Origin: Mesostigma viride
Lineage: Eukaryota > Streptophyta > Mesostigmatophyceae > Mesostigmatales > Mesostigmataceae
NCBI GenBank assembly: GCA_009746045.1
Contig: RPFO01000041.1
Location: 2,708,613 to 2,772,612, forward strand
Reading direction: 5' to 3'
DNA: 64,000 nucleotides
Part shown: positions 4,346-44,944 of the stretch, piece after piece
How the letters are laid out: every line of letters starts with the position of its first letter
Numbering within the stretch: position 1 is the stretch's first letter
Position numbers and translations under genes: made by a program
The notes under the pieces: model-generated
Told to the model about the DNA's origin: nothing
Databases searched by the model: none
Seen by the model: only the letters and a program-made list of their open reading frames with translations

Positions 4346-4383
4346 AGTGGGGCGCACTCCAGCAGACAAGCTGGGGCCCCACT
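4346..4383 (+). other. Two-stem hairpin, copy 1 (array unit 1)
   Basis: Outer arms AGTGGGGC/GCCCCACT pair perfectly. On the 5' side an unpaired GCACT follows, then inner arms CCAGCa/aGCTGG (five pairs and an A.A mismatch) closing a GACA loop, then a single unpaired G on the 3' side. The layout is shared by all copies described in the findings. The unit-2 equivalent is at 6757-6794. Confidence 0.8.
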
Positions 4384-4412
4384 GTTGGTGGCAGGCTTCC
4401 CCGCGACCAGTA

Positions 4413-4450
4413 AGTGAGGGGCACTCTAGCAGCCATGCTAGGCCTTCACT
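4413..4450 (+). other. Two-stem hairpin, copy 2 (array unit 1)
   Basis: Outer arms AGTGAGGG/CCTTCACT (eight pairs, one G.U), 5' bulge GCACT, inner arms CTAGCA/TGCTAG, loop GCCA, 3' bulge G. It lies 29 bp after copy 1. Stem letters differ from copy 1 while pairing and bulges are kept. The unit-2 equivalent is at 6824-6861. Confidence 0.8.
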
Positions 4451-6756
4451 ATTGGTGACGGGTCCTCCACGGCCAGAATGGCCAGGCTGGGGGAAGCGGG
4501 AAGTGAGATGGCAGCATCAGCTGGCTGGGGGGGCCTGCAGATGCTTTATTCACCAATTATGCGACTTTGGTCCAAGAGTCTCTTGTGCGTAAACGTATTT
4601 TGTAAAAAATAATGTCTGGAGCCCTCAGTGATGGAGTGAACGAGTTGAGACATGCATAGGGATGGTTGATCTCCCTCGATCTGGATTCCCTGATTTGTCG
4701 GGGCGGAGGGAGCGAAGGAGGCGAGGGACGCCGCTGGGAGACAGCACATATAAAAAATAAATAGAGCATTTAATATTTTATAATAGGCCCTGGTCTTTTA
4801 TAAGGGGCAGTAGTCACAATTTATAAGGGCCCTGGAATTTAATAAGGGGCGCCAGTGTGGTGGTACGAGATCTGCCCTCTAATAGGGTGTAAGTCCGTAC
4901 AAGTAACTTGTAAACTAGTTCTAAGTACTTGGATGTAGTTCCAAGTACTTCACTTGGCCTACAGGGTAGTACAGTCTACTTCAATCTACTTCAAACTAGT
5001 TCATTCTAGTTCAAACCAGTGCTGACGTGCTTCGGCGTAGCACTGGACGCTCAAGAGGTGAACGGACCTACTGGGGTGTAGTAGACCAAGACTAAACGTA
5101 GTACAATGTCAAAAGAATTAGTAGGGATGGGTTCCTTGTAGTACAACTGGCCAAGGGTGCTTTTGGCGCCAAAACCAGGTGTACCGGACTTGCATCCGCC
5201 ACAGTGGGCAAGTACGCTGCCACTTCGCATGGTGTACGAATATTGTATGGGTCACGGAATTGTGTTTCGACCCGAATTAGAAGGACCTGGGCCGCCGCCG
5301 GCCCAAGTCTGAGAAAAAGTGCGGGCATATAACCAGCCGAGGTGTGCCTGTGCTGGTATTCGTTTTTATTAGTGGTGACGGCCAGCCATGGTGGCAGGCA
5401 ATGATTTAAACGAATGCAAAAGGCCTCCCCGAGTCCGGGGGGGCTGGGAATGAATTTTATTTAGAGACGCGCGACGGTGGTCGGCGTCCAAGCGGTCGTT
5501 TGAGGGCCAGACGTTGAAAATCGGGGCAGAAATTGCGGATTTAGTGCCGAAATCTGCGGTAGGGTGCCGGCAATCTTTTTCGGCCTTAACTGACCTGGGA
5601 CGAGGCGAATAAAGGTTGCTTGGACCTGTTTCGATGGTCCTAAACGACGAGCAAAGGTGGCCGGCTGCTGTCCCGACGTTTGAGGGGTGGGCATAGAAAT
5701 TTGGACCCGAAATTGAGTCGCAAGGCCGGAAAGTGCGGTAAGGGAACGAAAATTTTATTTCGGCCCTGGGCGTGCTTGTTCGAGCTGTTTTACGTTTGAT
5801 ACTGCCTTGCGTGATGACCCTCAACGACGAGCAGTGTAAAAAATATAGTAGGCTGCAATGCCGGCTGCCCAAGATCTGAATGCGGCATCATTAGCTACCT
5901 TTGGCTCACGGGGCTTTGCGGGCAGGGCATACCGCGTCACAGCCCGATGGCTTTGAAGGAGCGGGTCGGCTGGTCCATTACGTGATGGTAACGTGAAAAA
6001 GAATATGTGGAGCCGAATTTTATGGGGAAAACCGGTGGCTGGAGGAGCGCTGGGTGTGGCTCCCTGGTTTTTATTTCTCGAGGGCTTACGTGGTGGTAGG
6101 GCGGCTCGGCGGCCTTGGGCCAGTGGTGGCCGGTTGGGGGAGGTGCCTTTCTTGACGGCTTTGGGGAGCTAAGGACTGTGGTGTTTTGGAACTGGGGGGA
6201 GGCAAAATGAGCGGCCTACGTAAAAAGACTTTTGGGCGCTGCCAGGCTAGTACCCTGAGAGCTTTGGGATGACATCTGTAATGGCATCCAAGAGGTGGGC
6301 AGGCAATGGGGGGAGCCTGGTGAGACCGGCTGGTTTTGACGGTTGTGAGGGCTAAGAGCAGGGGCGCTTGCTCAAGATAGCCTAAGTGACCAGCTAGCTG
6401 TCCTGAGAATGGAATGGAGATTACACCTTGCTATGTATGCCGCCGGCAGCCCTCTAGGGCGAGTACCTGGGGATGCTTGCACCCCGGGTTACGCCCTGCA
6501 AACAGAGGGTTGTGACCGTAGCGGCAGCTTGTGGCATGTGACTTTTGGCGAGTCGCTGGGCCATAGCACTGGATCGTGACAGTTATGGCATGAGGAGCGC
6601 GAGGAGGATGGTGTAGGGTGGAAGTTGGCAGACGTGCCAGCTATTTTCGCTGGACGAGGAGGGGGGAAAGGTGTGGGGGATGGATTGACCGTACCTTTGG
6701 TTGGACGCTGTTCTCTCCTATCCAAGGGGGATCAAGGCATTGTTTGAGACTTCGCT

Positions 6757-6861
6757 AGTGGGGCGCACTCCAGCAGACAAGCTGGGGCCCCACTGTTGGT
6801 GGCAGGCTTCCCCGCGACCAGTAAGTGAGGGGCACTCTAGCAGCCATGCTAGGCCTTCACT
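6757..6861 (+). other. Hairpin pair in array unit 2
   Basis: An exact repeat of the unit-1 pair, with hairpins at 6757-6794 and 6824-6861. The third unit lost both through an internal deletion between the equivalents of 2960 and 4499, marked by a foreign 20-bp filler at about 7789-7808. Confidence 0.8.
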
Positions 6862-7975
6862 ATTGGTGACGGGTCCTCCACGGCCAGAATGGCCAGGCTG
6901 GGGGAAGCGGGAAGTGAGATGGCAGCATCAGCTGGCTGGGGGGGCCTGCAGATGCTTTATTCACCAATTATGCGACTTTGGTCCAAGAGTCTCTTGTGCG
7001 TAAACGTATTTTGTAAAAAATAATGTCTGGAGCCCTCAGTGATGGAGTGAACGAGTTGAGACATGCATAGGGATGGTTGATCTCCCTCGATCTGGATTCC
7101 CTGATTTGTCGGGGCGGAGGGAGCGAAGGAGGCGAGGGACGCCGCTGGGAGACAGCACATATAAAAAATAAATAGAGCATTTAATATTTTATAATAGGCC
7201 CTGGTCTTTTATAAGGGGCAGTAGTCACAATTTATAAGGGCCCTGGAATTTAATAAGGGGCGCCAGTGTGGTGGTACGAGATCTGCCCTCTAATAGGGTG
7301 TAAGTCCGTACAAGTAACTTGTAAACTAGTTCTAAGTACTTGGATGTAGTTCCAAGTACTTCACTTGGCCTACAGGGTAGTACAGTCTACTTCAATCTAC
7401 TTCAAACTAGTTCATTCTAGTTCAAACCAGTGCTGACGTGCTTCGGCGTAGCACTGGACGCTCAAGAGGTGAACGGACCTACTGGGGTGTAGTAGACCAA
7501 GACTAAACGTAGTACAATGTCAAAAGAATTAGTAGGGATGGGTTCCTTGTAGTACAACTGGCCAAGGGTGCTTTTGGCGCCAAAACCAGGTGTACCGGAC
7601 TTGCATCCGCCACAGTGGGCAAGTACGCTGCCACTTCGCATGGTGTACGAATATTGTATGGGTCACGGAATTGTGTTTCGACCCGAATTAGAAGGACCTG
7701 GGCCGCCGCCGGCCCAAGTCTGAGAAAAAGTGCTGGCATATAACCAGCCGAGGTGTGCAATGATGTGCTGGTATTCGTTTTTATTAGCCCACCCAACCCA
7801 CCCTGAGGGAAGTGAGATGGCAGCATCAGCTGGCTGGGGGGGCCTGCAGATGCTTTATTCACCAATTATGCGACTTTGGTCCAAGAGTCTCTTGTGCGTA
7901 AACGTATTTTGTAAAAAATAATGTCTGGAGCCCTCAGTGATGGAGTGAACGAGTTGAGACATGCATAGGCCGGAG

Positions 7976-8352: not shown

Positions 8353-9020
8353 TGTTACGTCCCGGCCCTTTTGGACGGACGTAACAATGGAATAAATTAT
8401 GTAGTTTGACTTGTTGTCATGGTCCGTAGGACTTTGGGACTCATTTCGGGACTTAATTTGGGAATTGTCCCTTGGTCAGGACTTTTGTATGGAACTATGA
8501 CAGTTTGGGTGATTCGGACCAGTTATTTTGGGCCTAGGTTGTTGTATACGTGTATCTTCTAGGGGCCGGTGCAGTCGCGCCGCGCTGCGTACTTTATAGC
8601 TAGTTGAGATATTATACTCATGCGCGGATTCTGTAGGCGAGGGTCGATGTCGACCCGAGGATCCTGTGTGGACTGCATTCTTTGGAAGGTCGGCGCCATG
8701 TCGGCGCCCCTTGCCAGCGTAGTGGCAGACCTAGGTGAAATTGGTCCGAGGACGAGAGTCTCGTCCTCTTGGTTTGATGAATGATAAGTGCGAATACGCC
8801 TACACATTAAACCTGGGGCAACTATCCATTTGTAATTGGTATTGCTAGCCATTATAAGTGTGTATTAATTAGCTTGGCATCAAGTCGCGGTGCCAGATAT
8901 CTCACGACCCCAGTCGTGAAGCGCAATCTGCATTAGGCCACCTTGAATCTTCCTAATTCCGGCATGGTAGATCTTTCGCTACGTGGCTCAGGCTAGGTGT
9001 GTCTGGGCTGGGACGTAACA
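8353..9020 (+). repeat. 5' LTR
   Basis: 668 bp, starting TGTTACGTCCCGGCCC and ending GGGCTGGGACGTAACA, so the ends also form a short inverted repeat. No clear TATA box or polyadenylation signal stands out. Confidence 0.92.
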
Positions 9021-9021
9021 C

Positions 9022-9034
9022 TGGTTATCGGAGG
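9022..9034 (+). other. Putative primer-binding site
   Basis: TGGTTATCGGAGG starts two bases after the 5' LTR, where a site complementary to a tRNA 3' CCA end is expected. The chromovirus has TGGACTCGGAGG in the same place, sharing CGGAGG. The tRNA is not identified. Confidence 0.5.
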
Positions 9035-9130
9035 AAATGTGCTGGAGAGGTCAGCTAACTCTCGCGGAGAGGGTTAGGGAAGCCAATTAGGAAACCAGGG
9101 CGGTGCTTGGCGTAGATAGAGGTTCCGGAA

Positions 9131-9335
9131 TTCAACGATTGCTGACAGGTCGGCGGCCAGCCCGTAAAGGGATTCAACGACGACCTAGGCAGCAAGCGGC
9201 CAGTCCGGGATACTCGGCGGGGCTAGCAATAGTCCTGTGGTGAGGTGCTGTCAACGAAAGCGTTCAGCTCTCCTGTTTTCAACGACACCAAGTGGCGGCC
9301 AGGGCTTGCCTTCAACGACACCGGGTGGCGGCCAG
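9131..9335 (+). repeat. Leader motif repeats TTCAACGA ... GCGGCCAG
   Basis: TTCAACGA recurs at 9131, 9173, 9278 and 9311 (with TCAACGA at 9251), and four of the five are followed 15-25 bp later by GCGGCCAG. They fill the untranslated leader between primer site and gag. A packaging or structural role is possible but inferred only from position. Confidence 0.5.
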
Positions 9336-10037
9336 CTCAGGAGGGATGAACGTCATCGAAGATGGTACGTCCCCTAGTTTAGATTTATCCTTCTAGACGC
9401 TTGCCTTCTCTCCGGGACCGCACGCGTAGGGGGTTTATGTTATACGTTGTACCCTCTATAGGTTGTAAATGTCGTTGGTGCCTATGGACGTCGCGGAGAC
9501 GGACATTCGTTGTTTGACCTGCAAGGGGTCGTGGGGGTGGATACCGTCTGGCTGTTGCCGACTGTGTTGACGGTGTTTACCTCCGTGTGTGCGTATAGCC
9601 CTTGCCGCGGAAAGCTCGGGCGTGTGCTGTGTTAGATTCCGTCTTCTTCCTCGTTGCGTTATGTGGTAACTGCACTGCACTTAGAGGTATTCCTGGGATT
9701 CCCCTTTTCCTTCTTGCAAGCTTCTGCTAGCCTATAATGCATTACGTCCCTACAGGGCATGTGAGGAATACATTAAGGATAAGGGCTCTATTGCCAGGTG
9801 GAAGGGATTGGATAATCTAGGAGATGCAGATAAGTCTAGTAAGGAACACATGCCATTGCCTGAGGGTATGCACACCACTCGTGAATGCTATAAGCCACCC
9901 ACACACAGCAAGGGAGGCAGCAGTCAGGAGGTGGGGACAGCAGTTACAGTTACCTTCTCCCAGCTGACCATTGGCTCTAGCAGACAATAGAGGGGATTAT
10001 TACTAGGGAATAGTACTAGGTTCTACATATATAAGAT

Positions 10038-10565
10038 GAGGGGGGTGGCCGGCATCTGCTTATTGACGTTTCGGTGGCGCGGCCCTTGGCTCTTAGCCAC
10101 GTGGCTGGGGCCTCCCTCACGGCAGGTTACACGGCGGACCGGGCGGAGCGGGCCAAGCTCCTGGCCTACGGCGACGTCGGGCACCATCGTGTGGTGCCCT
10201 TTGTCCTGGAGGAGTTTGGGGCCATGGGGCCCCTGACCTCCGCCTTCTTCAAGGAGTGTTGCCGGCTCCGGGAGGACCGGCTGGACCTGGAGGGCCAGCG
10301 GGCCCCATGGTCGGCGCGGACCTGGACGTCATATTGGCGTCAGCGCTTGTCGGTGGCGCTGACTCGGGCCATGGCTGACATCATGCTCCGCCGTACGCGG
10401 GCTGATTTTGCGGTGCAGCAGGGCTATTAGGTTCCTCCCGTTAGGCGTTTCCATTGGTCTTATCGTAGTATAGAGCTTTGACATGGCTCTGTATATAGGT
10501 TTATAGCTGGGCGTTTGCTTTGGTTTGAGTGATTTCACTCTGCTGTAAGTAATTATATTTTTAAT
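10038..10565 (+). mobile_element. 5'-truncated non-LTR copy with 13-bp TSD
   Basis: The segment is nearly identical to 58080-58604, the 3' end of the large non-LTR element, and carries its last 118 or so codons (10074-10430), including the end of the endonuclease domain. ACATATATAAGAT flanks it at 10025-10037 and 10566-10578. The insert ends in a T-rich tail rather than poly(A). Truncation plus target duplication is the classic result of target-primed reverse transcription. It shows the family was active after the LTR element landed. Confidence 0.93.
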
Positions 10566-10664
10566 ACATATATAAGATCTATAGCACGTGGTTGCCCTCT
10601 CTCCCTCTCTCTCTTTCTTTCTGGGGAGGTGTTGCCTGCAGTGTAAGGTATCGGTACGAGCACC

Positions 10665-10971
10665 ATGCCACGAAAACGGAGAGAAGCTGTCAACAGAGAG
10701 ATAGAACAGGTAGAAAACCACGAGCAAGGTATAGAGGTGGTAGAGGTACCACCGCACGTCCAAGTAGGGACAGGTACAGGTGAGGTCATGGAGAGACCTG
10801 CGGAAGGCTCCCCACGATCCAGAGACCAGGGCCGCAGAGATTCATCAGATGAAGACAGTCCAGACTCCAGGTTGGAACAAGGGGGGGACGGGCGCAGCCA
10901 GGAGATGCTCCAGCAGGGTTTCCAGCAGCAGCAACGGCAGCAGCAGCAGCAGGGTTTCCAGCAGCAACAAC

Positions 10972-11013
<42 letters not shown>

Positions 11014-11042
11014 GTTTCCATTTCCAGCAGCAGAAGCAGCAG

Positions 11043-11082
<40 letters not shown>

Positions 11083-12743
11083 GGAGGCAGCAGCAGCGGC
11101 AGCAGCAGCAACAGCAGCAGCAGCAACCGCAGCAGCAGCAACGACCACAGTGGCCGCCGCGGTATCCTGAGCAGACAGGGCACGAGAATGAAAACACGCA
11201 GTACTACCGTTATCATGCTCAGCCAGACACGGAGCGACCATCGCAGCCCTGGGCTGGGCGCGGCCGCTCCATGGGACCTCCGCCGGCCACAACACACCGG
11301 GGCAGGCGTCGAGTGTCCTTTGGCAGTGCTTCCCTACTACCCATGGTGTTGTGGAACTCTGAGGATGACGGTGAGGACACCGGGGCAGATGGCGAATTCG
11401 GCGATTTGGAGGGGGCCGTGGAGGATATCGAGGAACCAGGGGCACAGGACCCGCCCTTTGGAGCTCATAGGCCACGGGCCTGGCTAGGGGGTGACAGAAG
11501 CAGCGCCACCGCACACGACGAGGGGACTCAGACAACCGTCCAGCGACACGTCCCCCAACCGCAGCGACCTCGGGCGCAGGACAGCAGCATGGTCCACTCG
11601 CCTGCGGTCGTCAGCAACCTGAATTTCAGCAGAGTGGCCTTGGAGGACCCGGGGTATGAACACCCCTCGTCGGTACAGGTGCGGCGGACGCACGGCACGC
11701 CGACCAGATCCGGATCTCTCCCCCGGTCGCAGCCCCCAGCCTTCGGCTCCATCGCCTACCGGGAGGTCGGTGGGCCCAAGCCTAATACGGTGAAGGCCCC
11801 ACCGTTGCCCACGTTCAAGAATGTTCCCAAGCTGCACGCGGACATGAAACCGCGGGAGATTGACGAATGGGGGCGCATGTGGCAACAGCAGTATACCGTT
11901 TGGCGCAATCACTACAGCTGGGAGCTTGCCACCTGTGATCTGATCCCGCTCGTGGTCAACACCTGCATGGACCCCGCGGTGGTGAGCATCTTGAACTGTG
12001 AGAGCATCGCATCCCAGTCGTACCCGCAAACCGTGGAGGAGTTGATGGACAGGGTGCGCCGCAAGTTGGTACCCCCAGACGCGGAGATCCACGAGCGACT
12101 CGCCTTCGGCAAGCTGCGCCAGGGGACCACTTCGTATCGCGAGTTCCTGTCCAAGTTTGAGTCCAGCGCCGCCTACCTGACCGACATGACCTGGTACGAG
12201 TACAATATCAGATTCATTGAGGCACTCAGCCCCGAGCTGCAGGACGAGGTACTGAAGCACTACGCTGAGGTTCCTTGGGAGGAGTGGGACATCTTGAATA
12301 TCCAGAGATATCTTCTGCAGGTGGCCGACGTCATGGCTCGCGGGCGCGCACCATCGGTGCGTCGGTTCTACCGATCAGGTCCCCCGCACGACGGCGAGGA
12401 GAACGATGACTCCCCCGATGACCTGGAGGACGGGAACGCTGACCATGGCCTCAACGCCATCGACGCGAGTAAAGCCCGTTGCTTCATGTGCTTTGAGGTG
12501 GGTCACCTCAGGCGCGACTGCCCCAAACTCCGTAGCAGGCACGCTGGACGTGGCACGGGGGAGACCGAGCCCAGGTTTTCAGGCCCGGCGTTCGGCAGTC
12601 GCCCGGACTCCTCCGGCCCAAGGGAAAAGCCCCGCAACGCGGACGAGCGGGCGCCAGCAGGCCCGGCAGTTCACGACTCAGCACCAGCAGCCGCGGCCGC
12701 CAGCGATGAGTTCTACCAAGGGCGTGCTGCGCGCGGTCAATGA
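10665..12743 (+). CDS. gag: Gag polyprotein of LTR element, polyQ N-terminus
   Basis: 692 codons from a clear ATG. About residues 80-165 are almost pure glutamine, encoded by CAG runs (10910-11145). An acidic linker follows, then at about 370-570 a retrotransposon Gag domain resembling the chromovirus Gag here (shared pattern TSYREFLSKFE/LSYREYMTKFE). A CCHC knuckle C-x2-C-x4-H-x4-C sits at 12480-12521. Gag binds element RNA and builds the particle. It is intact, unlike the rest of the element, so it may still be made. The polyQ tract is not a usual part of Ty3 Gag. Confidence 0.88.
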
Positions 12744-12825
12744 GATCGAGGCTCACGACTAGCCTCCGGACAGCGTGCGACCTTTGAGTCACCAGCAGTG
12801 GCCGGTTACGAGTTTGCCGCTGGGA

Positions 12826-12890
12826 AGTATACTATAAATATATTATTATATAGTATATTTAATAATAATTATATTTTTATAATATGTTCA
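12826..12890. other. AT-only stretch between gag and protease
   Basis: A run of almost only A and T with TATATA and ATTATTA words follows gag. No reading frame crosses it. It may be a later expansion that separated gag from pol. Confidence 0.4.
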
Positions 12891-13000
12891 CTCCGGTGCG
12901 CTTTTCCAGTCCTAGTGGCTGGCCACCTTAGCCATTCTGAGAATGCCCACCTGTGTAGGGCAAGGGGGGGTGTCTGTTTTGCCCCACATCTGTACCAAAT

Positions 13001-13120
13001 ACCAAGGGTGCATTGGTCCTGCACAGTAGCAGGTCACCCTGTTATCATGATGTCAGTAGTACGAAGGGTGCATTGGTCCTGCCCAGTAGCAGGTCACCCT
13101 GTTATCATGCTATCAGCAGT
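13001..13120. repeat. 60-bp tandem repeat, two copies
   Basis: GGGTGCATTGGTCCTGC and the following CAGTAGCAGGTCACCCTG recur with a 60-bp period at 13001 and 13061, with a few differences. Non-coding spacer between gag and protease. Confidence 0.75.
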
Positions 13121-13295
13121 AAGGGGGGTGTTTGGAATCATACACTGACCCCATGCATAGACGCCGTTGGCGGTAATGGGAAATTACTATTAGGCGTCTA
13201 GCACTAGTGGTTTTATATAGGGTACCGTTGGCGGTAATGGGATATTTTATATATGAGATTGTAATAATATATTCAGACACGGCCAACCAACCGTC

Positions 13296-13672
13296 ATGGA
13301 TGTCAAGTTTTTGGTCGTCACAGGCGCTTCCACGTCCTTCATCAACGCGGCACTGGTGCGCCGGCTGGGCCTGACGCCCAGCCCCCACACCGGACGGCCG
13401 TGCATCTGACCCACTCGGATGGTCGCCAACACCAATCGCCGGTCTGGCAGATATCAAAGGTGTGCTGCAAGGCACCCCGTTCGACCTGGCTGCGACCATC
13501 GCACCGCTGGGCGCAGCGGACATCATCATTGGGCTCGACTTTGGACGCGCTGGATGTGGACATTCGCGTGCGCCGGCGAGTAGTTTGGTTTCCCGATGGT
13601 TCCTTTTGGTGCCCTGACAGCGAGTATAGGGCATATCGCATTACACACGAGCGCCCGGCGGTCCAGCATCCT
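13296..13672 (+). pseudogene. Decayed retropepsin of LTR element
   Basis: It opens with FLVVTGASTSFINAALVRR, resembling the chromovirus protease start (VLIDSGAATTFI). The flap and C-terminal parts appear in other frames as APLGAADIIIGLDFG and VVWFPDGSFW, so at least two frameshifts exist. The catalytic Asp of D-T/S-G-A is Val (GTC for GAC). No RT follows. Inactive. Confidence 0.8.
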
Positions 13673-13932
13673 TGACTCCTTGGCAGTAATTGGACGATCG
13701 CGTGGACGCGTCGTCCCCGGGGGAAGGGGAGGGGTCGCAGAGCGTATGAAACCAGATGGCTACTAATAATACCATATACTTCTTTACTATACCTACCTTT
13801 TATATACTAAGTACTTGTACTGGTCCACTACACTTCTTTATGATACCATACTCTTCTTAACTATATCTAGCTCCTGTATGATCGGCACGGTTCGGCTTTG
13901 GATCGAGCCGGCCATCTATGTAGGAATCCACC

Positions 13933-14038
13933 GCAGCCGCGCGTGGATCCGACGACCCTTCTACTGCCATGCCAGGGATCGATGCGCAGCCGCGCGTGGA
14001 TCCGACGACCCTTCTACTGCCATGCCAGGGATCGATGC
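13933..14038. repeat. 53-bp tandem duplication
   Basis: Two adjacent copies starting GCAGCCGCGCGTGGATCC at 13933 and 13986. No coding role seen. Confidence 0.8.
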
Positions 14039-14039
14039 G

Positions 14040-14985
14040 CCAGCGTGCGGATATTATATATTTTCGATATTCTCTATTTTCTATATAATATATTTTCTCC
14101 ATGATATATTCTCTATGGGATAATCTGCAGTTGGCGGTGGGCTTGAACGGGTCGTCCCGAAGAGGACCACGTCAGGCACTCAGCACCGCATGTGCACATG
14201 GTCCTGGCCTTTTTGGACATGGGCTCACCGGATGCTTGATGATTCTACTACTAAGGCGTCCGTACCGAGGCATCTCCGCGTGGGATGCCGGATTCGGCAG
14301 CGAGTGCCAGTGACCCCAGACTACGGCCTGACTGCACGTCGCGTCCCGCGTGACCAACGGACGCGGAGTCCCATGGCACGCGGCCAAGTATTATTATAGG
14401 GAGTCTTCCGGCTGGCGGCTATGAGTCACGGCTCCCTGACTTCCTGGCGCATGAGGGACGCGCCTCGCTTCTCGTGCACCCGTACGTGATTAATTTCACC
14501 ATTGCGACACGGTGCATGGAGACGGCACGGTGCGTGGAGGCTGTTGCAACCCCGATGCGACTGGGCGATCAGGCAGGGCGGAGCCTGTACTGAATCGTGG
14601 TCGGCCGGCAAACAGATGTACAGCACCTTGTTGAATTGTCGGTAGCCAACCAATTGGCTACCCCGGCATTGAGTCGACGCCTAGCTGGGTCAGGGCACTC
14701 CTGGGCTCGAGTAACCGTGCATGCGGGCGCGCCCGCGTCCGCCGCGACCGTCGGGAGTAAGGGCCCCGGGGCTGCAAGCATATGCGGGCACGGTGCAGTT
14801 GCATGGCGACAGCACGTACTGCCGGCAGTAGTGGTGGATGACCCAGCCGGTCGTGGTTGCACTGGTTGCGCTGGTGCCGGTCGTGGTTGCATCAGAAGCA
14901 GGTGGCGGTGTCCGGTCATTGTCTCACCGCCTCAACAGTGCGCGTGCATGGTGCCGATGCCACATGATGTGGCGCTGTCGCCCCG
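14040..14985. other. Unassigned spacer inside LTR element
   Basis: No frame here shows retroelement motifs. It lies where RT, RNase H and integrase would be expected, so it is either very decayed pol or filler. Confidence 0.4.
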
Positions 14986-14989
14986 CAGA

Positions 14990-15810
14990 CTGCCGGTGTC
15001 CGAGTAACACCCGGTATCACTGCATAGGGCCGGTACATCCGCTCTGAGCGGACCCGGCGCTGACGCGCGCTGAGCCATGGCAGAGCACTGAGGTACATGG
15101 GACGTGCGGGATCTGGCCGTCGAGGGCGAGTCACGGGGACTGTAGTAACGGCGACCCGAGACTGAGAGGCAGGCAGGATCGAGCTGCTGGAGTCTGAGCA
15201 CCTAGTCACTGCCCGCGACCCTGTGCATGGCTACCATCGCGCAGTGTTCGCGTCCCTCCTGTGGGCTGAGCCCGGTAGGGAGTTGTTTCCTTGCACCACT
15301 GGTGGAGGCCGATCGAGCGTGATTTGCAAGTGGCTCGTGTCCGCGCGCCTACGAGGTTGCATGGATGAGGGACTCAGAGCAGGGCGTTCCATGTGCATGG
15401 CGGGCGGGCTGTGTGGGCTTCAAAATGTACTATACCCCATGGCCATGCACTGGTACAGGGGTGGTGAGAGGCCTTCAAGCTTCGAGTGGGGGATGTGGCG
15501 ACGCGCGGTGGGGACTGCATACATAGGGGCGTGTTTCTGTTGCGGGAATGGGATCCTGGGCAAGACAGTCAAGCGGGGTGGACAGGCGGTGATCGGTCGT
15601 GCGCGGCATTGACCCCGGTCCACGATCGCTGTATGTGCTTGAGCACCTGTGGGCTGGGCGCGATCGAGCCCGAGGAGCTCTTGTTTGGGACTGCGGGGTT
15701 GCTTCGGCCCTACTCCATGAGCAGCACGGTGTCTCGCAGGGGCAACGTTACTGATACGGCAGTTCCTGCAAGGCGTGTCACTCCCCGACCTGCCCATTGC
15801 ATTATATAAG
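14990..15810 (+). pseudogene. Decayed DIRS RNase H/recombinase fragment
   Basis: Matches appear in several frames in the order seen in copy II: AACACCCGGTATCACTG (NTRYH of RNase H), YHRAVFASLLWAEP and SMCM (recombinase N-terminus as in copy I), TTCAAGCTTCGAGTGGGGGA (FKLRVGD, box I), GAGGAGCTCTTGTTTGG, and CCCTACTCCATGAGC (PYSMR, box II). It is full of stops and frameshifts. Three hairpins follow where the 3' tail of a DIRS element would be. Confidence 0.75.
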
Positions 15811-16071
15811 TGCGGGCATTGCGGGCGCTATGCAGTCCACGTCGGCGGCCTCGAGCATCACATGCTTATGGGCCCGCGCAAACATCAACCGTGCTCTTGC
15901 TGTGCAAGTGTCACGGAGGGTGTGACTGCGAGCTGAGGAGTTTTCCCCCGCTTGCGGTGGAGTTCAGGCACATTGGCAGTAAGGAATGCGGGGACCGGCG
16001 ACTGCTCCGGTCTATGCACGTCGGCCGGAGTGGTGTTGTGCCTAAACTACTGCAGCTTCGTGGAGGAGTTG

Positions 16072-16107
16072 GCAGGGCGCACTCCAGTGGACACGCTGGG
16101 GCCCTGC
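16072..16107 (+). other. Two-stem hairpin, copy 3
   Basis: Outer arms GCAGGGC/GCCCTGC, 5' bulge GCACT, inner arms CCAGTG/CGCTGG (one U.G pair), loop GACA, 3' bulge G. The outer stem extends by two weaker pairs to 16070-16109. Confidence 0.8.
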
Positions 16108-16178
16108 TAGTTTTGGCCATATTATCCAAGTTTCCGGTGTTGATCGACTTTGCCTGTTTCCTGCGCTGGATAGAGACG

Positions 16179-16214
16179 GCAGGGCGCACTCTAGTGGACA
16201 CACTAGGGCCTTGC
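16179..16214 (+). other. Two-stem hairpin, copy 4
   Basis: Outer arms GCAGGGC/GCCTTGC (one G.U), 5' bulge GCACT, inner arms CTAGTG/CACTAG, loop GACA, 3' bulge G. Compared with copy 3 two inner pairs change together: C-G to U-A and U.G to U-A. Confidence 0.8.
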
Positions 16215-16241
16215 GGGCACCTGCATGCGTTCGCAGGTGCA

Positions 16242-16279
16242 GGGGAGGCGCACTCTAGCGGCCACGCTAGGGCTTCCCC
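16242..16279 (+). other. Two-stem hairpin, copy 5
   Basis: Outer arms GGGGAGGC/GCTTCCCC (one G.U), 5' bulge GCACT, inner arms CTAGCG/CGCTAG, loop GCCA, 3' bulge G. A decayed fourth relative (CACTCTAGCGGC) lies just after it at about 16291-16302. Confidence 0.8.
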
Positions 16280-17077
16280 CGCTATACAGCCACTCTAGCG
16301 GCGGCCAGGGACGGCCACGTTGCATGGTCGGTAATTGGCTCACCGCGCGCCTGGATTTGAGAGGACGCGTACAACTGTCGGTAGTGAGGCGATGGATCAG
16401 ATTCTTCTGGTGCACGCCCTCGCTTCTGAGCATGGGGCCTGCACCGCATGCTGTGCCTCACCGTCGTCGACGCTAGTAGTACTTCTTAATCGTCATGTGA
16501 TTACGCGCATCAGTCGCGCTGTAAGGCTGGGTTTCGGCTGGACGGGATACATGACTGGCCACCTCGTCGGCCGGATCATCAAGTTGTATGCATGAAAAAT
16601 ATTCCCTCCTGCTGACAGTCCCGATCGGCTATATAAAGAGTTGCCCTTGAGTGGCAAGTCTGGGGGGACCTGGTTTCACTGCATGGCCCGTTGGTGCACA
16701 AGGGCTGGGACATAGTACCCCTATGGTCAACATTTCATCAAGTTTGAGGCTGCTCAGGGCTGGTTGCGCGGGATTACATGGACTGTGCATTACTAGGTGG
16801 ATGGGATAGGGCAAGCGGTGGCGCCCTAAGGTGGCTCCAGTGGATTGGCGCGTCAACAACGGCGGTCGCTGAGATGGTTGTGAGAGTTTTATGACGGATA
16901 GTGGAATTATCCTGTCATCCTGTTTCATGCTACTACGTCAGGGTTGGTCCTGTGTATCAACCTCTAGAGGAATTGGTATTACTAACCCGCGGGAGAACCG
17001 GGGTTGGGACATAGTACTCTTATAGTAGCTTACTTGTTTCCTTTCTATCTCTTGTACGGTAGGGACTACCGACCCCC

Positions 17078-17091
17078 GTGGGGGGGAGGGG
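17078..17091 (+). other. Polypurine tract of LTR element
   Basis: A G-rich run (GGGGGGGAGGGG) directly precedes the 3' LTR, where plus-strand synthesis is primed in LTR elements. Confidence 0.7.
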
Positions 17092-17759
17092 TGTTTCGTT
17101 CCGGCCCTTTTGGACGGACGTAACAATGGAATAAATTATGTAGTTTGACTTGTTGTCATGGTCCGTAGGACTTTGGGACTCATTTCGGGACTTAATTTGG
17201 GAATTGTCCCTTGGTCAGGACTTTTGTATGGAACTATGACAGTTTGGGTGATTCGGACCAGTTATTTTGGGCCTAGGTTGTTGTATGCGTGTATCTTCTA
17301 GGGGCCGGTGCAGTCGCGCCGCGCTGCGTACTTTATAGCTAGTTGAGATATTGTACTCATGCGTGGATTCTGTAGGCGAGGGTCGATGTCGACCCGAGGA
17401 TCCTGTGTGGACTGCATGCTTTGGAAGGTCGGCGCCATGTCGGCGCCCCTTGCCACCGTAGTGGCAGACCTAGGTGAAATTGGTCCGAGGACGAGAGTCT
17501 CGTCCTCTTGGTTTGATGAATGATAAGTGCGAATACGCCTACACATTAAACCTGGGGCAACTATCCATTTGTAATTGGTATTGCTAGCCATTATAAGTGT
17601 GTATTAATTAGCTTGGCATCAAGTCGCGGTGCCAGATATCTCACGACCCCAGTCGTGAAGCGCAATCTGCATTAGGCCACCTTGAATCTTCCTAATTCCG
17701 GCATGGTAGATCTTTCGCTACGTGGCTCAGGCTAGGTGTGTCTGGGCTGGGACGTAACA
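17092..17759 (+). repeat. 3' LTR
   Basis: 668 bp, starting TGTTTCGTTCC and ending GACGTAACA. It differs from the 5' LTR at about seven positions, which points to some age. Confidence 0.92.
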
Positions 17760-20614: not shown

Positions 20615-21071
20615 GCCATGTCTTCCTCAATAAATTGGCTGCATTGCATGCGCACGGTGACGAATGCAAGTCCGGTACAGTACTGGCGCGGCGCCCAGGT
20701 GCCACTGAACAGTTGTACTACAAATAACCCACTTGTACTGATTCTTTCGACATTGTACTACGTTTAGTCACTGTCTACTTCAACCCAGGTGGTCATACCA
20801 CCTCCTAGGCAGGTTGTGCTACACCTGAACGAATCTTTACTAGCCTGAGCTAGTTTGAACTAGTTTGAAGTAGATTGTACTACCCTGTAGTACCAATGAA
20901 GTACTTTGAACTACATCCAAGTACTTGGAAACAGTCCAGTGGTCATTTGCAGGGACTTTCACCCTTTCTAGGAGCATTTCTCGCAGATCAGCCATGAGGC
21001 AGCGGCACCGACTCGCACTCCGCTCCCCTTAGTCGCAAATCAGGGAATCCAGATCGTAAGATCAACCAAGG
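20615..21071. repeat. Left inverted terminal block of DIRS copy II
   Basis: Read in reverse it parallels the right block at 26045-26400: the core GATCTTACGATCTGGATTCCCTGATTT, a GGGGAGCGGAG word, the CTAGTT/AGTACTT array (20840-20945), and GTAGTACAATGT. The block is imperfect and diverged. Inverted terminal repeats are typical of DIRS elements. The first 95 bp after ACTGGCGCGGCGCCC recur at 45693-45787. Confidence 0.7.
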
Positions 21072-23293: not shown

Positions 23294-23724
23294 ACGGCTG
23301 TTTTGCCGTCCCCAAGAAAGACCCCGGGGTTGTGGAGCCCAGCGAACGACGGCAGCGGTTTATAGGGAATATGGTGCCGTGCAACCGGCGCTTCCTCAAG
23401 CCGCCTACCTGTTACCTGCCTAACTTGGGCGAGGTCGCTGAGCTGAGTGTGGGGGCGCCATGCTATTCGGGCAAGACAGACCTTGACACCTACTATTACC
23501 GGTTCGAGGTACCTGAGAGCTGGCGCCCCTATTTCTCGCTGCCCCCCGTGTGGTCCGATGAGGTCGGCCAGCTGGGACGACGGCGAAAGTTGTACCCCAG
23601 GTTCCGGGTCCTTGTCATGGGCTGGAGCCACTCGGTGGTCCTTGCACAGGTTGCCCACCTGCACTGTCTCTACGGGGCGGGGTGCTCGATGCCAAGAGAG
23701 GGCTGTCATATCCCATGCACTTGA
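23287..23724 (+). CDS. DIRS copy II ORF2, RT fingers/palm segment
   Basis: Carries the RT part with VPKKDPG, RRQRFIGNMV, the first palm Asp in YSGKTDLDTYYYRFEVP, and the RVLVMGWSHSVVLAQVAH stretch. A second frameshift near 23680-23690 (inserted base in GGGGTGCTCGATG) moves coding to the next frame. Compared with copy I the protein runs straight through, so both breaks belong to this copy or to the assembly. Confidence 0.75.
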   Translation: MVNGCFAVPKKDPGVVEPSERRQRFIGNMVPCNRRFLKPPTCYLPNLGEVAELSVGAPCYSGKTDLDTYYYRFEVPESWRPYFSLPPVWSDEVGQLGRRRKLYPRFRVLVMGWSHSVVLAQVAHLHCLYGAGCSMPREGCHIPCT

Positions 23725-25766: not shown

Positions 25767-25782
25767 ATTTCGGCCATACTTC

Positions 25783-25820
25783 GGTGAGGCGCACTCTAGC
25801 GGACACGCTAGGGCTTCACC
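25783..25820 (+). other. Two-stem hairpin, copy 6 (3' tail of copy II)
   Basis: Outer arms GGTGAGGC/GCTTCACC (one G.U), 5' bulge GCACT, inner arms CTAGCG/CGCTAG, loop GACA, 3' bulge G. It starts 17 bp after the recombinase stop and about 225 bp before the terminal block. Confidence 0.85.
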
Positions 25821-25901
25821 AGCTGGAGGGTAAGGATGTGCCCTCCCATGGCTCCTGACGCGGTTTCCAGATGTACGGCCTGCGGCCAGGTTGGAGATGC
25901 G

Positions 25902-26044
25902 GGTCAAGTGGAAGCGGCGGCCAGGGACTGCCAAAAAATATTTTATGTCTCTCTGTCCACTAAGTCCGGTCGGCTTCAACATATAGAGTAATAAACAAGT
26001 TCTGGTGCCCTTCAACCAGAAGTGGACCTAGGCAATGCACAGTG
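25902..26044 (+). repeat. Tail repeat B1
   Basis: A 140-bp block, GTCAAGTGGAAGCGGCGGCC to CAATGCACAGTGG, present twice per tail: B1 here and B2 at 26475-26614, one on each side of the terminal block. B1-A-B2 resembles the split repeats of PAT/kangaroo-type elements. Confidence 0.8.
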
Positions 26045-26474
26045 GATGATTGATCTTACGATCGGGATTCCCTGATTTTGCCTGGGGGAGCGGAGGGATG
26101 GAGGTGCGCCGCTACCTTGGAGGCGCTACACCGTTGCCCAGTGGTGCAAGTCGACATGCGGGAGCCAAACGGGGTGGCCACGCCCTCTCTGGAGGGTCTG
26201 ACAGCCTTGGATGGGCCTCAGATGTAGTTCGAACTAGTTCAAAGTTTCATAAAAATGTAGTACAATGTTGAAAAAAGTAGTATCAGGGTCCTAGATCTAG
26301 TACAGTAGTATTCTGAGGTCATTCTTACATGGAGCGCCGCGCCAGCGGGGCGCCGCACTTGCGTGTGTCACGGATGCAACGTTGATGCGATGTATTTCAA
26401 GGTGGTGATGGCTGCCAAGCCAGCTTATCAGTTTTCCCCACCCACCCACCCTTTTCTGTTTTGTCTTGGGGGGT
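26045..26474 (+). repeat. Right terminal block of copy II (A block)
   Basis: Starts ATGATTGATCTTACGATCGG, then GGATTCCCTGATTTTGCC, and is the inverted partner of 20615-21071. It lacks about 127 bp (CTAGTT array part) present in the later units at 42285-42411. Confidence 0.8.
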
Positions 26475-26614
26475 CAAGTGGAAGCGGCGGCCAGGGACTG
26501 CCAAAAAATATTTTATGTCTCTCTGTCTACTAAGTCCGGTCGGCTTCAACATATAGTGTAATAAACAAGTTCTGGTGCCCTTCAACCAGAAGTGGACCTA
26601 GGCAATGCACAGTG
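26475..26614 (+). repeat. Tail repeat B2
   Basis: Second copy of the 140-bp block. Instead of a terminal block it is followed by recombinase sequence starting AGCGTTCAAGCTTCGCG. That junction is the seam of the tandem array. Confidence 0.8.
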
Positions 26615-26909
26615 GAGCGTTCAAGCTTCGCGTGGGGGACGTGGCTCTGCGCGGGGACTTCCGCCTGGGGCCCAGTAACCAGGGTGCGCTGCTGCTACGC
26701 GACCCCAAGACAGCCAAGGGCCAGGCCCAGGCAGTGGTGGTTGTTGAGCCCCTTTCACTCACGTTGCTTGGCGCCCTGTGTGCTGGGCGGGCGCACGAGG
26801 AGCTGCTCTTTGGCGCACTCAGCTACCAGCCGTTTGTTGCGGCGGTGGCACGCCGCCTGGGACCTCCTTGGCTTGCGGGGGAGGTTTTCACCCTACAGCA
26901 TGCGCCACG
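26612..26909 (+). pseudogene. Recombinase fragment split by hAT (left half)
   Basis: Encodes FKLRVGDVALRG to the box-II region, ending at ATGCGCCACG. It has a small frame disturbance near SYQPFV compared with SYSRLL. The coding sequence resumes at 41614 after the 8-bp duplication. Confidence 0.85.
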
Positions 26910-41151: not shown

Positions 41152-41480
41152 ATATTCGGTGCATGGCTGCCCGAGAGGCAAGGGCTGAGCACCTAAACAG
41201 CATGGAGGGTTGCCAACTTCCAGGTAACTAGGTGTACGTTTATTCCAAATATAACCAGTAGTTAATCCCTGCTAAGCCTTGCTCAGCAATGGTTGCCAAC
41301 TTGCCATGCTACAGTGTAGCTTGCTTGTAAGATCCTTGTGTCTCACGGTCGCCAAATGTCAACCAGTGGATGGTTTCCGTAGTGTTTCTAAGTTCCCTTG
41401 CTTTCCCGCCTTGGTTCCCGCCCGAAAAATTTGGCTGCCGGACCTCGGATGAGCGCGAAAACCCCATTATACGCGCGCTC
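41152..41480. other. hAT interior, right side, no gene seen
   Basis: Only short frames. E2F-type half sites (CCCGCCAAA) occur nearby at about 41040-41070 inside the piggyBac-like end. The hAT subterminal TATACG/CGTATA repeats begin at about 41468. Confidence 0.5.
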
Positions 41481-41613
41481 ATACGTGTTATTCGCCGTAT
41501 TATACGTAAAAATACGCAAATCGTATAAAACGGATAAAAATTATCCGCTCGACCTTGTATAACGCGTATTATACCGTATTATACCGTATAATACGCCGTA
41601 TAATTGAACACTG

Positions 41614-41815
41614 GCGCCACGGGGGGGCCACCCATGACTACCTGCGCGGGGTACCAATCGCGGACATCCAAAAGCGTGGCCGGTGGCGCCAGTTTTCGTC
41701 CGTGGACCATTACGTGGGGCTCCACCGCGCCCTGCAGGTGCGGGTGCCCCAGGTGGTGTGGGACCTCGCGGGCAGACTGCCCCCCCGTGACTGGCGTCGT
41801 CACTTTGGGCCATAG
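41614..41815 (+). pseudogene. Recombinase C-terminus after hAT
   Basis: Resumes at GCGCCACGGGGGGGCC and encodes HGGATHDYLRGVPIADIQKR to the end, including the catalytic-Tyr region VDHYV. The stop is at 41813-41815. Together with 26612-26909 it was one fragment of unit 2 before the insertion. Confidence 0.85.
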
Positions 41816-41831
41816 ATTTCGGCCATACTTC

Positions 41832-41869
41832 GGTGAGGCGCACTCTCGCGGACACGCTAGGGCTTCACC
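41832..41869 (+). other. Hairpin copy 7 with one broken inner pair
   Basis: Same as copy 6 but the 5' inner arm is CTCGCG while the 3' arm stays CGCTAG, leaving one C.U mismatch. The same change is present at 43287-43324 and 44741-44778, so units 2-4 descend from one mutated tail. Confidence 0.8.
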
Positions 41870-42772
41870 AGCTGGAGGGTCAGGATGTGCCCTCCCATGG
41901 CTCCTGACGCGGTTTCCAGATGTACGGCCTGCGGCCAGGTTGGAGATGCGGGTCAAGTGGAAGCGGCGGCCAGGGACTGCCAAAAAATATTTTATGTCTC
42001 TCTGTCTACTAAGTCCGGTCGGCTTCAACATATAGTGTAATAAACAAGTTCTGGTGCCCTTCAACGAGAAGTGGACCTAGGCAATGCACAGTGGATGATT
42101 GATCTTACGATCGGGATTCCCTGATTTTGCCTGGGGGAGCGGAGGGATGGAGGTGCGCCGCTACCTTGGAGGCGCTACACCGTTGCCCAGTGGTGCAAGT
42201 CGACATGCGGGAGCCAAACGGGGTGGCCACGCCCTCTCTGGAGGGTCTGACAGCCTTGGATGGGCCTCAGATGTCGTTCGAACTAGTTCAAAGTTAGTAC
42301 AGGTAGTACAAACTAGTTCAAACGAGTTCAATCTACTTCAACTAGTATCCAGGGACCCTCAAGATATGCCAGGTGGTTGCTGAACGGTTCTGGCATGACA
42401 GAACATGTGTGACATCATAAAAATGTAGTACAATGTTGAAAAAAGTAGTATCAGGGTCCTAGATCTAGTACAGTAGTATTCTGAGGTCATTCTTACATGG
42501 AGCGCCGCGCCAGCGGGGCGCCGCACTTGCGTGTGTCACGGATGCAACGTTGATGCGATGTATTTCAAGGTGGTGATGGCTGCCAAGCCAGCTTATCAGT
42601 TTTCCCCACCCACCCACCCTTTTCTGTTTTGTCTTGGGGGGTCAAGTGGAAGCGGCGGCCAGGGACTGCCAAAAAATATTTTATGTCTCTCTGTCTACTA
42701 AGTCCGGTCGGCTTCAACATATAGTGTAATAAACAAGTTCTGGTGCCCTTCAACCAGAAGTGGACCTAGGCA

Positions 42773-43270
42773 ATGCACAGTGGAGCGTTCAAGCTTCGCG
42801 TGGGGGACGTGGCTCTGCGCGGGGACTTCCGCCTGGGGCCGAGTAACCAGGGTGCGCTGCTGCTACGCGACCCCAAGACAGCCAAGGGCCAGGCCCAGGC
42901 AGTGGTGGTTGTTGAGCCCCTTTCACTCACGTTGCTTGGCGCCCTGTGTGCTGGGCGGGCGCACGAGGAGCTGCTCTTTGGCGCACTCAGCTACAGCCGT
43001 TTGTTGCGGCGGTGGCACGCCGCCTGGGACCTCCTTGGCTTGCGGGGGATGTTTTCACCCTACAGCATGCGCCACGAGGGGGCCACCCATGACTACCTGC
43101 GCGGGGTACCAATCGCGGACATCCAAAAGCGTGGCCGGTGGCGCCAGTTTTCGTCCGTGGACCATTACGTGGGGCTCCACCGCGCCCTGCAGGTGCGGGT
43201 GCCCCAGGTGATGTGGGACCTCGCGGGCAGACTGCCCCCCCGTGACTGGCGTCGTCACTTTGGGCCATAG
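42773..43270 (+). pseudogene. Tail unit 3: recombinase C-terminal half
   Basis: Opens in B2 (ATGCACAGTGG) and reads straight into FKLRVGDVALRG and on to the normal recombinase end. It holds box I, PYSMRHEGATH (Gly to Glu next to the box-II His compared with copy II) and VDHYV. A start codon inside B2 would give a 165-residue product with all visible catalytic residues except those N-terminal to box I. Confidence 0.75.
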
Positions 43271-43286
43271 ATTTCGGCCATACTTC

Positions 43287-43324
43287 GGTGAGGCGCACTC
43301 TCGCGGACACGCTAGGGCTTCACC
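43287..43324 (+). other. Hairpin copy 8
   Basis: Identical to copy 7, including the C.U mismatch in the inner stem. Confidence 0.8.
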
Positions 43325-44227
43325 AGCTGGAGGGTCAGGATGTGCCCTCCCATGGCTCCTGACGCGGTTTCCAGATGTACGGCCTGCGGCCAGGTTGGAG
43401 ATGCGGGTCAAGTGGAAGCGGCGGCCAGGGACTGCCAAAAAATATTTTATGTCTCTCTGTCTACTAAGTCCGGTCGGCTTCAACATATAGTGTAATAAAC
43501 AAGTTCTGGTGCCCTTCAACGAGAAGTGGACCTAGGCAATGCACAGTGGATGATTGATCTTACGATCGGGATTCCCTGATTTTGCCTGGGGGAGCGGAGG
43601 GATGGAGGTGCGCCGCTACCTTGGAGGCGCTACACCGTTGCCCAGTGGTGCAAGTCGACATGCGGGAGCCAAACGGGGTGGCCACGCCCTCTCTGGAGGG
43701 TCTGACAGCCTTGGATGGGCCTCAGATGTCGTTCGAACTAGTTCAAAGTTAGTACAGGTAGTACAAACTAGTTCAAACGAGTTCAATCTACTTCAACTAG
43801 TATCCAGGGACCCTCAAGATATGCCAGGTGGTTGCTGAACGGTTCTGGCATGACAGAACATGTGTGACATCATAAAAATGTAGTACAATGTTGAAAAAAG
43901 TAGTATCAGGGTCCTAGATCTAGTACAGTAGTATTCTGAGGTCATTCTTACATGGAGCGCCGCGCCAGCGGGGCGCCGCACTTGCGTGTGTCACGGATGC
44001 AACGTTGATGCGATGTATTTCAAGGTGGTGATGGCTGCCAAGCCAGCTTATCAGTTTTCCCCACCCACCCACCCTTTTCTGTTTTGTCTTGGGGGGTCAA
44101 GTGGAAGCGGCGGCCAGGGACTGCCAAAAAATATTTTATGTCTCTCTGTCTACTAAGTCCGGTCGGCTTCAACATATAGTGTAATAAACAAGTTCTGGTG
44201 CCCTTCAACCAGAAGTGGACCTAGGCA

Positions 44228-44944
44228 ATGCACAGTGGAGCGTTCAAGCTTCGCGTGGGGGACGTGGCTCTGCGCGGGGACTTCCGCCTGGGGCCGAGTA
44301 ACCAGGGTGCGCTGCTGCTACGCGACCCCAAGACAGCCAAGGGCCAGGCCCAGGCAGTGGTGGTTGTTGAGCCCCTTTCACTCACGTTGCTTGGCGCCCT
44401 GTGTGCTGGGCGGGCGCACGAGGAGCTGCTCTTTGGCGCACTCAGCTACAGCCGTTTGTTGCGGCGGTGGCACGCCGCCTGGGACCTCCTTGGCTTGCGG
44501 GGGATGTTTTCACCCTACAGCATGCGCCACGAGGGGGCCACCCATGACTACCTGCGCGGGGTACCAATCGCGGACATCCAAAAGCGTGGCCGGTGGCGAC
44601 AGTTTTCGTCCGTGGACCATTACGTGGGGCTCCACCGCGCCCTGCAGGTGCGGGTGCCCCAGGTGATGTGGGACCTCGCGGGCAGACTGCCCCCCGTGAC
44701 TGGCGTCGTCACTTTGGGCCATAGATTTCGGCCATACTTCGGTGAGGCGCACTCTCGCGGACACGCTAGGGCTTCACCAGCTGGAGGGTCAGGATGTGCC
44801 CTCCCATGGCTCCTGACGCGGTTTCCAGATGTACGGCCTGCGGCCAGGTTGGAGATGCGGGTCAAGTGGAAGCGGCGGCCAGGGACTGCCAAAAAATATT
44901 TTATGTCTCTCTGTCTACTAAGTCCGGTCGGCTTCAACATATAG
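44228..44944 (+). pseudogene. Tail unit 4: recombinase C-terminal half, frameshifted end
   Basis: As unit 3, but one C is missing from the C-run near 44691-44697, so the last residues change and the frame reads through the hairpin into B1. VDHYV is upstream of the shift and kept. Confidence 0.75.
44741..44778 (+). other. Hairpin copy 9
   Basis: Same as copies 7 and 8. The array ends after B2 of this unit at 45692. Confidence 0.8.

Follow-up and report, generated by a model that had tools for sequence, protein, structure and literature searches.

The stretch of DNA considered here, hereafter the window, is a 64-kb segment (G000 C1579:2708613-2772612) of the 440-Mb assembly of the streptophyte alga Mesostigma viride, and further copies in the genome were sought in the same assembly. 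The window holds PAT-like retrotransposons with a tyrosine recombinase (family 1), a gene-less, non-autonomous element, and a retroelement with long terminal repeats (LTRs), called Y, and all of these carry copies of a small bulged hairpin, which is the subject of this work. A first-pass annotation had placed eleven copies of the hairpin in the window. The motif is indeed found at all 11 positions, always on the + (sense) strand, but these sites contain only seven distinct sequences (41832 = 43287 = 44741; 4346 = 6757; 4413 = 6824). The coordinates are collected in Table 1.

In the refined plan of the hairpin, an outer stem of eight pairs is followed by a bulge of four nucleotides (nt), GCAC, in the 5′ arm, then by seven inner pairs, of which the first is U.G, and by a loop GNNA. 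The folds of the seven distinct copies have z-scores between -2.9 and -5.8 and show about eight outer pairs, the GCAC bulge, about seven inner pairs and a tetraloop. The plan departs from the earlier description in a few details. Of the supposedly unpaired GCACT, the GCAC bulge stands, but the T forms a U.G wobble with the 3′-side G; this G, formerly thought to be unpaired, is paired to the T in 7/7 minimum-energy folds and 5/7 centroids. The loops GACA and GCCA both occur, but so do GATA, GTCA and GGCA, hence the consensus GNNA. Some copies are imperfect, with one broken inner pair at 41832/43287/44741, A-A at the last inner pair at 4346/6757 and G-G at the outermost pair at 16179. A covariance model built from the seven distinct copies scores the 11 sites at 56.9-68 bits, the next match in the window having 14.3 bits (expectation value, E, 0.25), and the hairpin core with at most three mismatches is found seven times in the window against 0.00 expected from shuffles. 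A descriptor scan of both strands of the window returned the 11 sites and two more, one at 36490 (+) without the GCACT core and one at 11163 (-) in the repeat-rich part of another open reading frame (ORF).

Among the seven distinct copies, 97.1% of the pair cells are standard and 8/15 pairs show changes on both sides. Under a phylogeny-aware null, in which the tree is kept and the substitutions of each branch are moved to random columns, the mean is 1.7 two-sided pairs, and eight were reached in 0/3000 runs. The set was extended to 21 sequences, that is, all distinct full-length hairpins of alignments A1, A4 and A7, leaving out only one that is truncated at the edge of locus L091; here 301/315 cells are standard and 11/15 pairs have two-sided changes (null mean 3.6; 0/2000 runs reach this). 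When each of four families is represented by one sequence, with one paralogue picked where a family has several, 8/15 pairs are still two-sided (0/2000 under the phylogeny-aware null). In the genome-wide copies of alignment A4, which does not include the locus L120 discussed below, the figure is 7/15, with 2/500 shuffles as high. RNAalifold, unprompted, returned the same structure from the 14 hairpins of alignment A7, a hand-picked selection that omits several damaged hairpins and also underlies the four-family test. The first-pass annotation would have given up its claim if covariation vanished once duplicates were collapsed; instead, two-sided pairs persist in the 7-copy, 21-copy and four-family sets. 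The GCAC bulge is present in 21/21 copies, the U.G pair in 20/21 and the G...A loop in 20/21, both exceptions being copies inside LTR family Y. With covarying stems and constant unpaired letters, the suspicion that structure and bulge letters are selected is borne out: as far as sequence comparison goes, the data show that selection on the sense strand favours a bulged hairpin whose GCAC bulge, U.G pair and GNNA loop stay fixed. In-frame translations of the hairpin, written as four peptide patterns, were not found in the collected proteins apart from one chance match, in P0011.

In which nucleic acid and on which strand does the hairpin fold? The 21 copies have 47 G.U cells and 3 A.C cells, or 27 and 3 when the U.G pair at the bulge is excluded, and since G.U is far above A.C, the folding strand is the sense strand. 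A double-stranded palindromic recombinase site was rejected on account of the joint changes of the arms and the abundance of G.U pairs. A different proposal would be that the hairpin, folded as single-stranded DNA, is a site that the tyrosine recombinase recognises by its structure, in the manner of integron attC. Like attC, the motif is a hairpin with extrahelical bases, and the elements that carry it are served by a tyrosine recombinase; in the loci examined it accompanies such a recombinase, its remnant or its parasite, its bulge and loop letters stay constant while the stems drift, and it folds well on one strand only. Unlike attC, however, it is internal to the terminal repeats and off the junction (the junctions, 2254/7971 versus 49591, are elsewhere), and it is rich in G.U pairs, which suit RNA more than DNA. 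We consider an attC-like site highly improbable.

The exact core pattern has 480 matches in the genome, and the reversed pattern has none. Sorted by core sequence and spacing, the first 100 of the 480 places go to family 1 (11), to family 2 (21) and to the type found in LTR family Y (66), with 2 left unassigned; this sorting was checked against sequence in the fetched loci only, and the count of hairpin-bearing families is a lower bound. At 23/23 recombinase 3′ ends of families 1 and 2 (window, L088-L113) at least one hairpin lies within 350 bases, 19 of these ends coming from loci chosen by hairpin matches and four from the window, and the earlier placement of the hairpin between the recombinase gene and the terminal block holds at all of them. 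The cluster stretches between hairpin matches (L109-L113) have no recombinase 3′ end and are thus neutral for placement; within them are two gene-less elements that the exact pattern had missed, with two hairpins each. L108 shows that the element copy at window positions 378-2336 (-) is truncated before its 3′ end. Family 2 has three hairpins, about 82, 195 and 255 bases past the last aligned recombinase codon, and the loop of the middle one is GATA. Overall, families 1, 2 and L120 have their first hairpin some 12-80 bases past the recombinase stop, so that the 17-base gap described at first is true for family 1 but not for the others. The bulge (that of the last hairpin, if there are several) is 70-102 bases upstream of the purine-rich GGAGATGYGGG in families 1, 2 and L120.

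A spacing of 17 bases is usual for stimulators of stop-codon readthrough, and, with the family 1 stem beginning at just this distance, the hairpin could be imagined as a downstream stimulator of readthrough or recoding at the recombinase stop. But two hairpins are present in elements without a long ORF, and family 2 has three, the first about 80 bases after the stop. We rejected this scarcely credible role on account of the retention of the hairpin by gene-less elements.

These gene-less elements are central to the question of function. Comparison of the one in the window with an empty site places its junctions at 2254/7971 against 49591, with no target duplication evident at this one site. 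The longest ATG-initiated ORF of its single-unit relative, L110:751-4070, has 83 amino acids, and when this relative is compared with families 1 and 2, matches with E <0.001 occur only in the terminal repeats and the hairpins (best hairpin E 7.7e-7), those outside having E 2.5-8.7, near chance. The hairpin is kept in non-autonomous elements, then, along with the terminal repeats. We infer that these elements are mobilised in trans, and the retention of the hairpin by such gene-less parasites suggests that it is an RNA-recognition signal of the element machinery. We propose, giving the idea about an even chance, that in the sense transcript the hairpin would act in cis as an RNA signal, recognised by the element's own proteins. 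An element protein, either Gag or the reverse transcriptase (RT)/RNase H-recombinase, would bind the bulge and loop, and the hairpin RNA would thereby be chosen, either to be packaged or to be reverse transcribed near the terminal repeat B1. Autonomous and parasitic elements would compete via the hairpin for the same machinery, with the one to three hairpin copies acting as added binding sites. Among the candidate roles listed in the first-pass annotation, Gag or RT recognition fits best, while self-cleavage is without support, no Rfam match to a self-cleaving ribozyme being found at the hairpins.

The main rival to recognition by element proteins is a 3′ untranslated region (UTR) element that is bound by a host factor and serves 3′-end formation, nuclear export, stability or translation of the element mRNA. 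The position of the first hairpin shortly past the stop (about 12-80 bases in families 1, 2 and L120), and in family 1 upstream of an AATAAA in the B repeat, would suit such a role, for which one, two or three copies would be equally natural. However, the hairpin is kept in gene-less elements, where mRNA stability and translation count less, and other recombinase lineages of the same host do without it yet would need the same host functions. We regard the host-factor explanation as rather unlikely.

A search with the recombinase P0007 scored 106 genome places, of which 30 loci were fetched, 18 of them from one abundant family. At one of these, L120, a hairpin was matched by the covariance model built from the window only, at 30.6 bits (E 3.6e-5). 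It lies 12 bases after the stop aligned with the P0007 stop, in a different recombinase lineage, and 15/15 of its pairs are standard, although in comparison with any one of 13 other copies 4-9 of them have changed on both sides.

Several observations weigh against recognition of the hairpin by element proteins. The other 29/30 recombinase-lineage loci have no hairpin by the window-only model (best E 3.8), and with a wider model, R2, built with L120 included and run on 15 of the 30 loci, the next match has E 2.2. The L120 recombinase gene holds an internal stop, and L120 has no match with the gene-less element. The hairpin is missing in the P0007-type loci L114-L116, which have open genes and to which L120 is about 81% identical, and at the alignable position it is absent from the L120 relatives L114 and L123; open-gene P0007-type elements without it imply that the hairpin is dispensable or replaced there. 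The structure also has its blemishes: one or more non-standard pairs or gaps are found in 12/21 distinct copies, family 2 hairpin 3 has A-C at the last inner pair in 10/58 rows, and family 2 hairpin 2 has G-G at the outermost pair in 9/58 rows. Further pair types are not above shuffles (96/500 as high for the window copies, 461/500 for A4 and 75/500 for A7). To these must be added the choice of most placement loci by their hairpin matches, mentioned above, and, among six copies of LTR family Y (five hairpin-selected), a hairpin divergence of 0.8, 2.2 and 2.1% versus 2.4-3.2% for neighbouring internal DNA. The first-pass annotation had regarded the hairpin as a general mark of DIRS-like tails, a view not supported by the 29/30 other-lineage loci without it or by the 66 of the first 100 matches that fit a dispersed LTR family. 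Judging from these loci, the hairpin is confined to some recombinase lineages.

The triplet at 16072-16279, formerly taken for a DIRS tail, is actually within LTR element Y, which bears a recombinase remnant at 15172-15690 followed by the three hairpins; further Y copies are found in L080-L087 (four) and L103 (one). No clear constraint on the hairpins was seen among the six Y copies, and these hairpins are read as passengers of the captured tail. Could the hairpin be a passenger everywhere, selfish, without function for the element and spread by recombination between tails? Its carriage without clear constraint in family Y, and its presence or absence at an alignable position among close relatives (L120 versus L114 and L123), are what such an origin would predict. 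Yet the compensatory changes at 11/15 pairs and the fixed unpaired letters demand selection on structure, and the hairpin occupies the same place between the recombinase gene and B1 in families 1, 2 and L120. A general passenger therefore seems improbable to us.

Sister families without the hairpin (L121, L122, L125-L143) have another structured 3′ UTR module after the recombinase stop, consisting of a stem with the loop TTGTGT and then GGGGGGAAATGGTTTAAC...GGGACAAAGTACCCCCATAGC, whose arms have changed yet pair; it had no Rfam match in L121 and L126. A similar stretch occurs twice in LTR family Y, at window positions 16630-16745 and about 16960-17050. At the start of B1, the P0007-type L114, L120 and L123 have an extra hairpin after GGAGATGTGGG, with arms varying around TAGGTGYTTA, which is damaged in L118. 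The recombinase family about 63% identical to P0007 (L126-L143 and more) has dozens of dispersed copies of equal score, many with an open frame of 995 amino acids, and may have been recently active.

To our knowledge, how RNA is chosen and how reverse transcription starts in DIRS-order retrotransposons are not established. Coat-protein hairpins of the MS2 operator type and retroviral Gag-binding hairpins mediate genome selection. The Mesostigma hairpin resembles these operator and packaging hairpins in being small, in having fixed bulge and loop letters at a fixed distance with covarying stems, and in occurring singly or repeated; it is unlike them in its 4-nt GCAC bulge, U.G pair and GNNA loop, and its binding protein is only putative. 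With the iron-responsive element it shares a 5′-side bulge below an upper stem, a conserved loop and a location in untranslated regions, but the loop, the bulge letters and the stem lengths differ, and Rfam gave no match at the hairpins. It is tempting to go further and to propose, though only tentatively, that the hairpin may be an RNA identity signal, the first to be recognised in a tyrosine-recombinase retrotransposon; it would be bound by Gag or the RT-recombinase, determine which RNAs enter the particle, be used by autonomous families and their gene-less parasites, and be replaced by other structured 3′ UTR modules in sister families. In any case, a 38-base element with fixed letters, natural compensatory variants and gene-less users gives tests of binding, packaging and transposition a defined target, and the RNA family, which Rfam lacks, is useful for annotating PAT-like elements and the LTR family that captured the hairpin.

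The earlier remark that no described motif matches agrees with Rfam, which has none at the hairpins. At the gathering threshold there were 0 matches in the window, L114, L120, L121 and L126; up to E 5 there were none in 16000-16400, and in 25700-26100 only a chance-level mir-BART1 (E 3.2) beside the hairpin. Outside the genome, the core pattern had 53 matches in prokaryote genomes and one in viral contigs, or 26 including that one with a looser pattern. The outer pairing of these is at most 6/8, and at most 4 where the inner stem is complete, and at L001-L054 (L055-L079 lying outside this comparison) the best model score is 28 bits versus 56.9-68 for the window copies. On poor pairing and model score, they were taken as chance and not as homologues. 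With the recombinase profile A2, viral contigs yielded no relative. The available portions of the DIRS papers PMC6681497, PMC5633606, PMC9210276 and PMC2685390 mention no conserved hairpin after the recombinase gene, and of the papers found on DIRS, PAT-like or Mesostigma elements in the open-access literature, a body that excludes older subscription papers, none describes such a hairpin or stem-loop motif in title or abstract opening. While cis-acting retroelement hairpins are known as a kind, this hairpin family, like its location within a recombinase retrotransposon, appears, from the sequence comparisons and sources just given, to be new.

Table 1. Hairpins and associated features of the window (positions are those of the window).
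Feature	Positions	Strand	Remarks
Hairpin 1, non-autonomous element unit 1	4346..4383	+	Fold, covariance model
Hairpin 2, non-autonomous element unit 1	4413..4450	+	Fold, covariance model
Hairpin 1, non-autonomous element unit 2	6757..6794	+	Covariance model
Hairpin 2, non-autonomous element unit 2	6824..6861	+	Covariance model
Hairpin 1, captured family-2-like tail in LTR element Y	16072..16107	+	Fold, covariance model
Hairpin 2, captured tail in LTR element Y	16179..16214	+	Fold, covariance model
Hairpin 3, captured tail in LTR element Y	16242..16279	+	Fold, covariance model
Hairpin, family 1 autonomous element	25783..25820	+	Starts 17 bases past recombinase stop; fold, covariance model
Hairpin, family 1 tandem unit	41832..41869	+	One inner pair broken; fold, covariance model
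Hairpin, family 1 tandem unit	43287..43324	+	Identical to 41832; covariance model
Hairpin, family 1 tandem unit	44741..44778	+	Identical to 41832; covariance model
Non-autonomous PAT-like element	2252..7971	+	Two 2411-base units and terminal repeats; empty site near 49591
LTR retroelement Y	8353..17759	+	668-base LTRs, TG...CA; 5-base target duplication AGCTC
Tyrosine-recombinase ORF, family 1	23682..25766	+	Pfam Phage_integrase E 4.9e-7, residues 510-663
2A-like motif DGDVESNPGP	24837..24866	+	Upstream of recombinase domain; sequence reading
Purine-rich GGAGATGCGGG at B1 start	25893..25903	+	GGAGATGYGGG also in family 2, L120
Terminal repeat B1	25901..26046	+	146-base direct repeat with 26471-26616
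Terminal repeat A2	26047..26470	+	Oriented as A block before first ORF (putative gag) at 47476-45859 (-)
Terminal repeat B2	26471..26616	+	Pairs with B1 as direct repeat

The order of features in family 1 is a first ORF (putative gag), a pol-like ORF with a 2A-like motif, the recombinase domain, the hairpin, GGAGATGCGGG, B1, A2 and B2. The first ORF has no Pfam domain. The recombinase ORF is 100% identical to eukprot jgi/Mesvir1 Mv11377, and the curated cut-off of Phage_integrase is passed by the window ORF and P0001, with matches below the cut-off in P0002, P0003, P0005 and P0007. Its N-terminal part we take, from sequence motifs, to be a putative RT/RNase H; Pfam gave no RT on the pol-like ORF and its relatives, and DNA_pol_viral_C, matched in relatives, stayed below cut-off (E 0.06-0.2). 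In the 2A-like motif (GDVE-x-NPGP), G-D-V-E and N-P-G-P are invariant in 7/7 aligned proteins (window, P0001-P0007 set), and the copy at 378-2336 (-) reads NPRP. The motif may serve to separate the pol protein from the recombinase as translation proceeds; a literature search found no report of a 2A peptide in DIRS or tyrosine-recombinase elements.

Split direct repeats, with B1/A2/B2 in the window, L088, L091, L095 (B2 partial), L096 and L099, and with a directly oriented A in front of the first ORF at 47476-45859 (-), identify the elements as PAT-like. They share with PAT-like and Ngaro-like elements (order DIRS) a pol-like ORF whose C-terminal part is the tyrosine recombinase, the 3′ B1-A2-B2, an equally oriented A block preceding the first ORF and, at one site, that of the non-autonomous element, no evident target duplication; they differ from them in carrying a 2A-like motif before the recombinase and, judging from the four DIRS papers cited above, a hairpin after its gene. 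GGAGATGYGGG is found at the B1 start in several families, and a CCCACCCACCC-like sequence near the A2 end before B2 (window 25893, 26440 and 7786; L090, L092, L100, L107, L114, L120); both are possible priming or joining signals.

At window positions 41614-45693, a unit of about 1455 bases, made up of recombinase end, hairpin, B1, A2 and B2, is repeated in tandem. Here B2 continues directly into the recombinase, and a frame that starts at an ATG in B2 extends into the recombinase domain (44228-44944). In the copy at 21067, the block before the first ORF (20649-21066) runs opposite to A2 and has diverged from it, in contrast to 47476-45859 (-), where the junction is direct, and the 21067 copy would have a mixed or rearranged 5′ end.

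Finally, the copies of families 1 and 2 are clustered. Among the first 100 places there is one cluster of 42-148 kb on each of three multi-megabase contigs (C1:13263064-13305001, C2:3838370-3922534 and C335:2462050-2609890), the window itself being at C1579:2.71-2.77 Mb; outside the clusters there is a single place on C106 and a pair on C446, and the Y-type copies are dispersed. In Dictyostelium, clusters of DIRS-1 are centromeres, and by analogy the clusters of families 1 and 2 may be centromeres.

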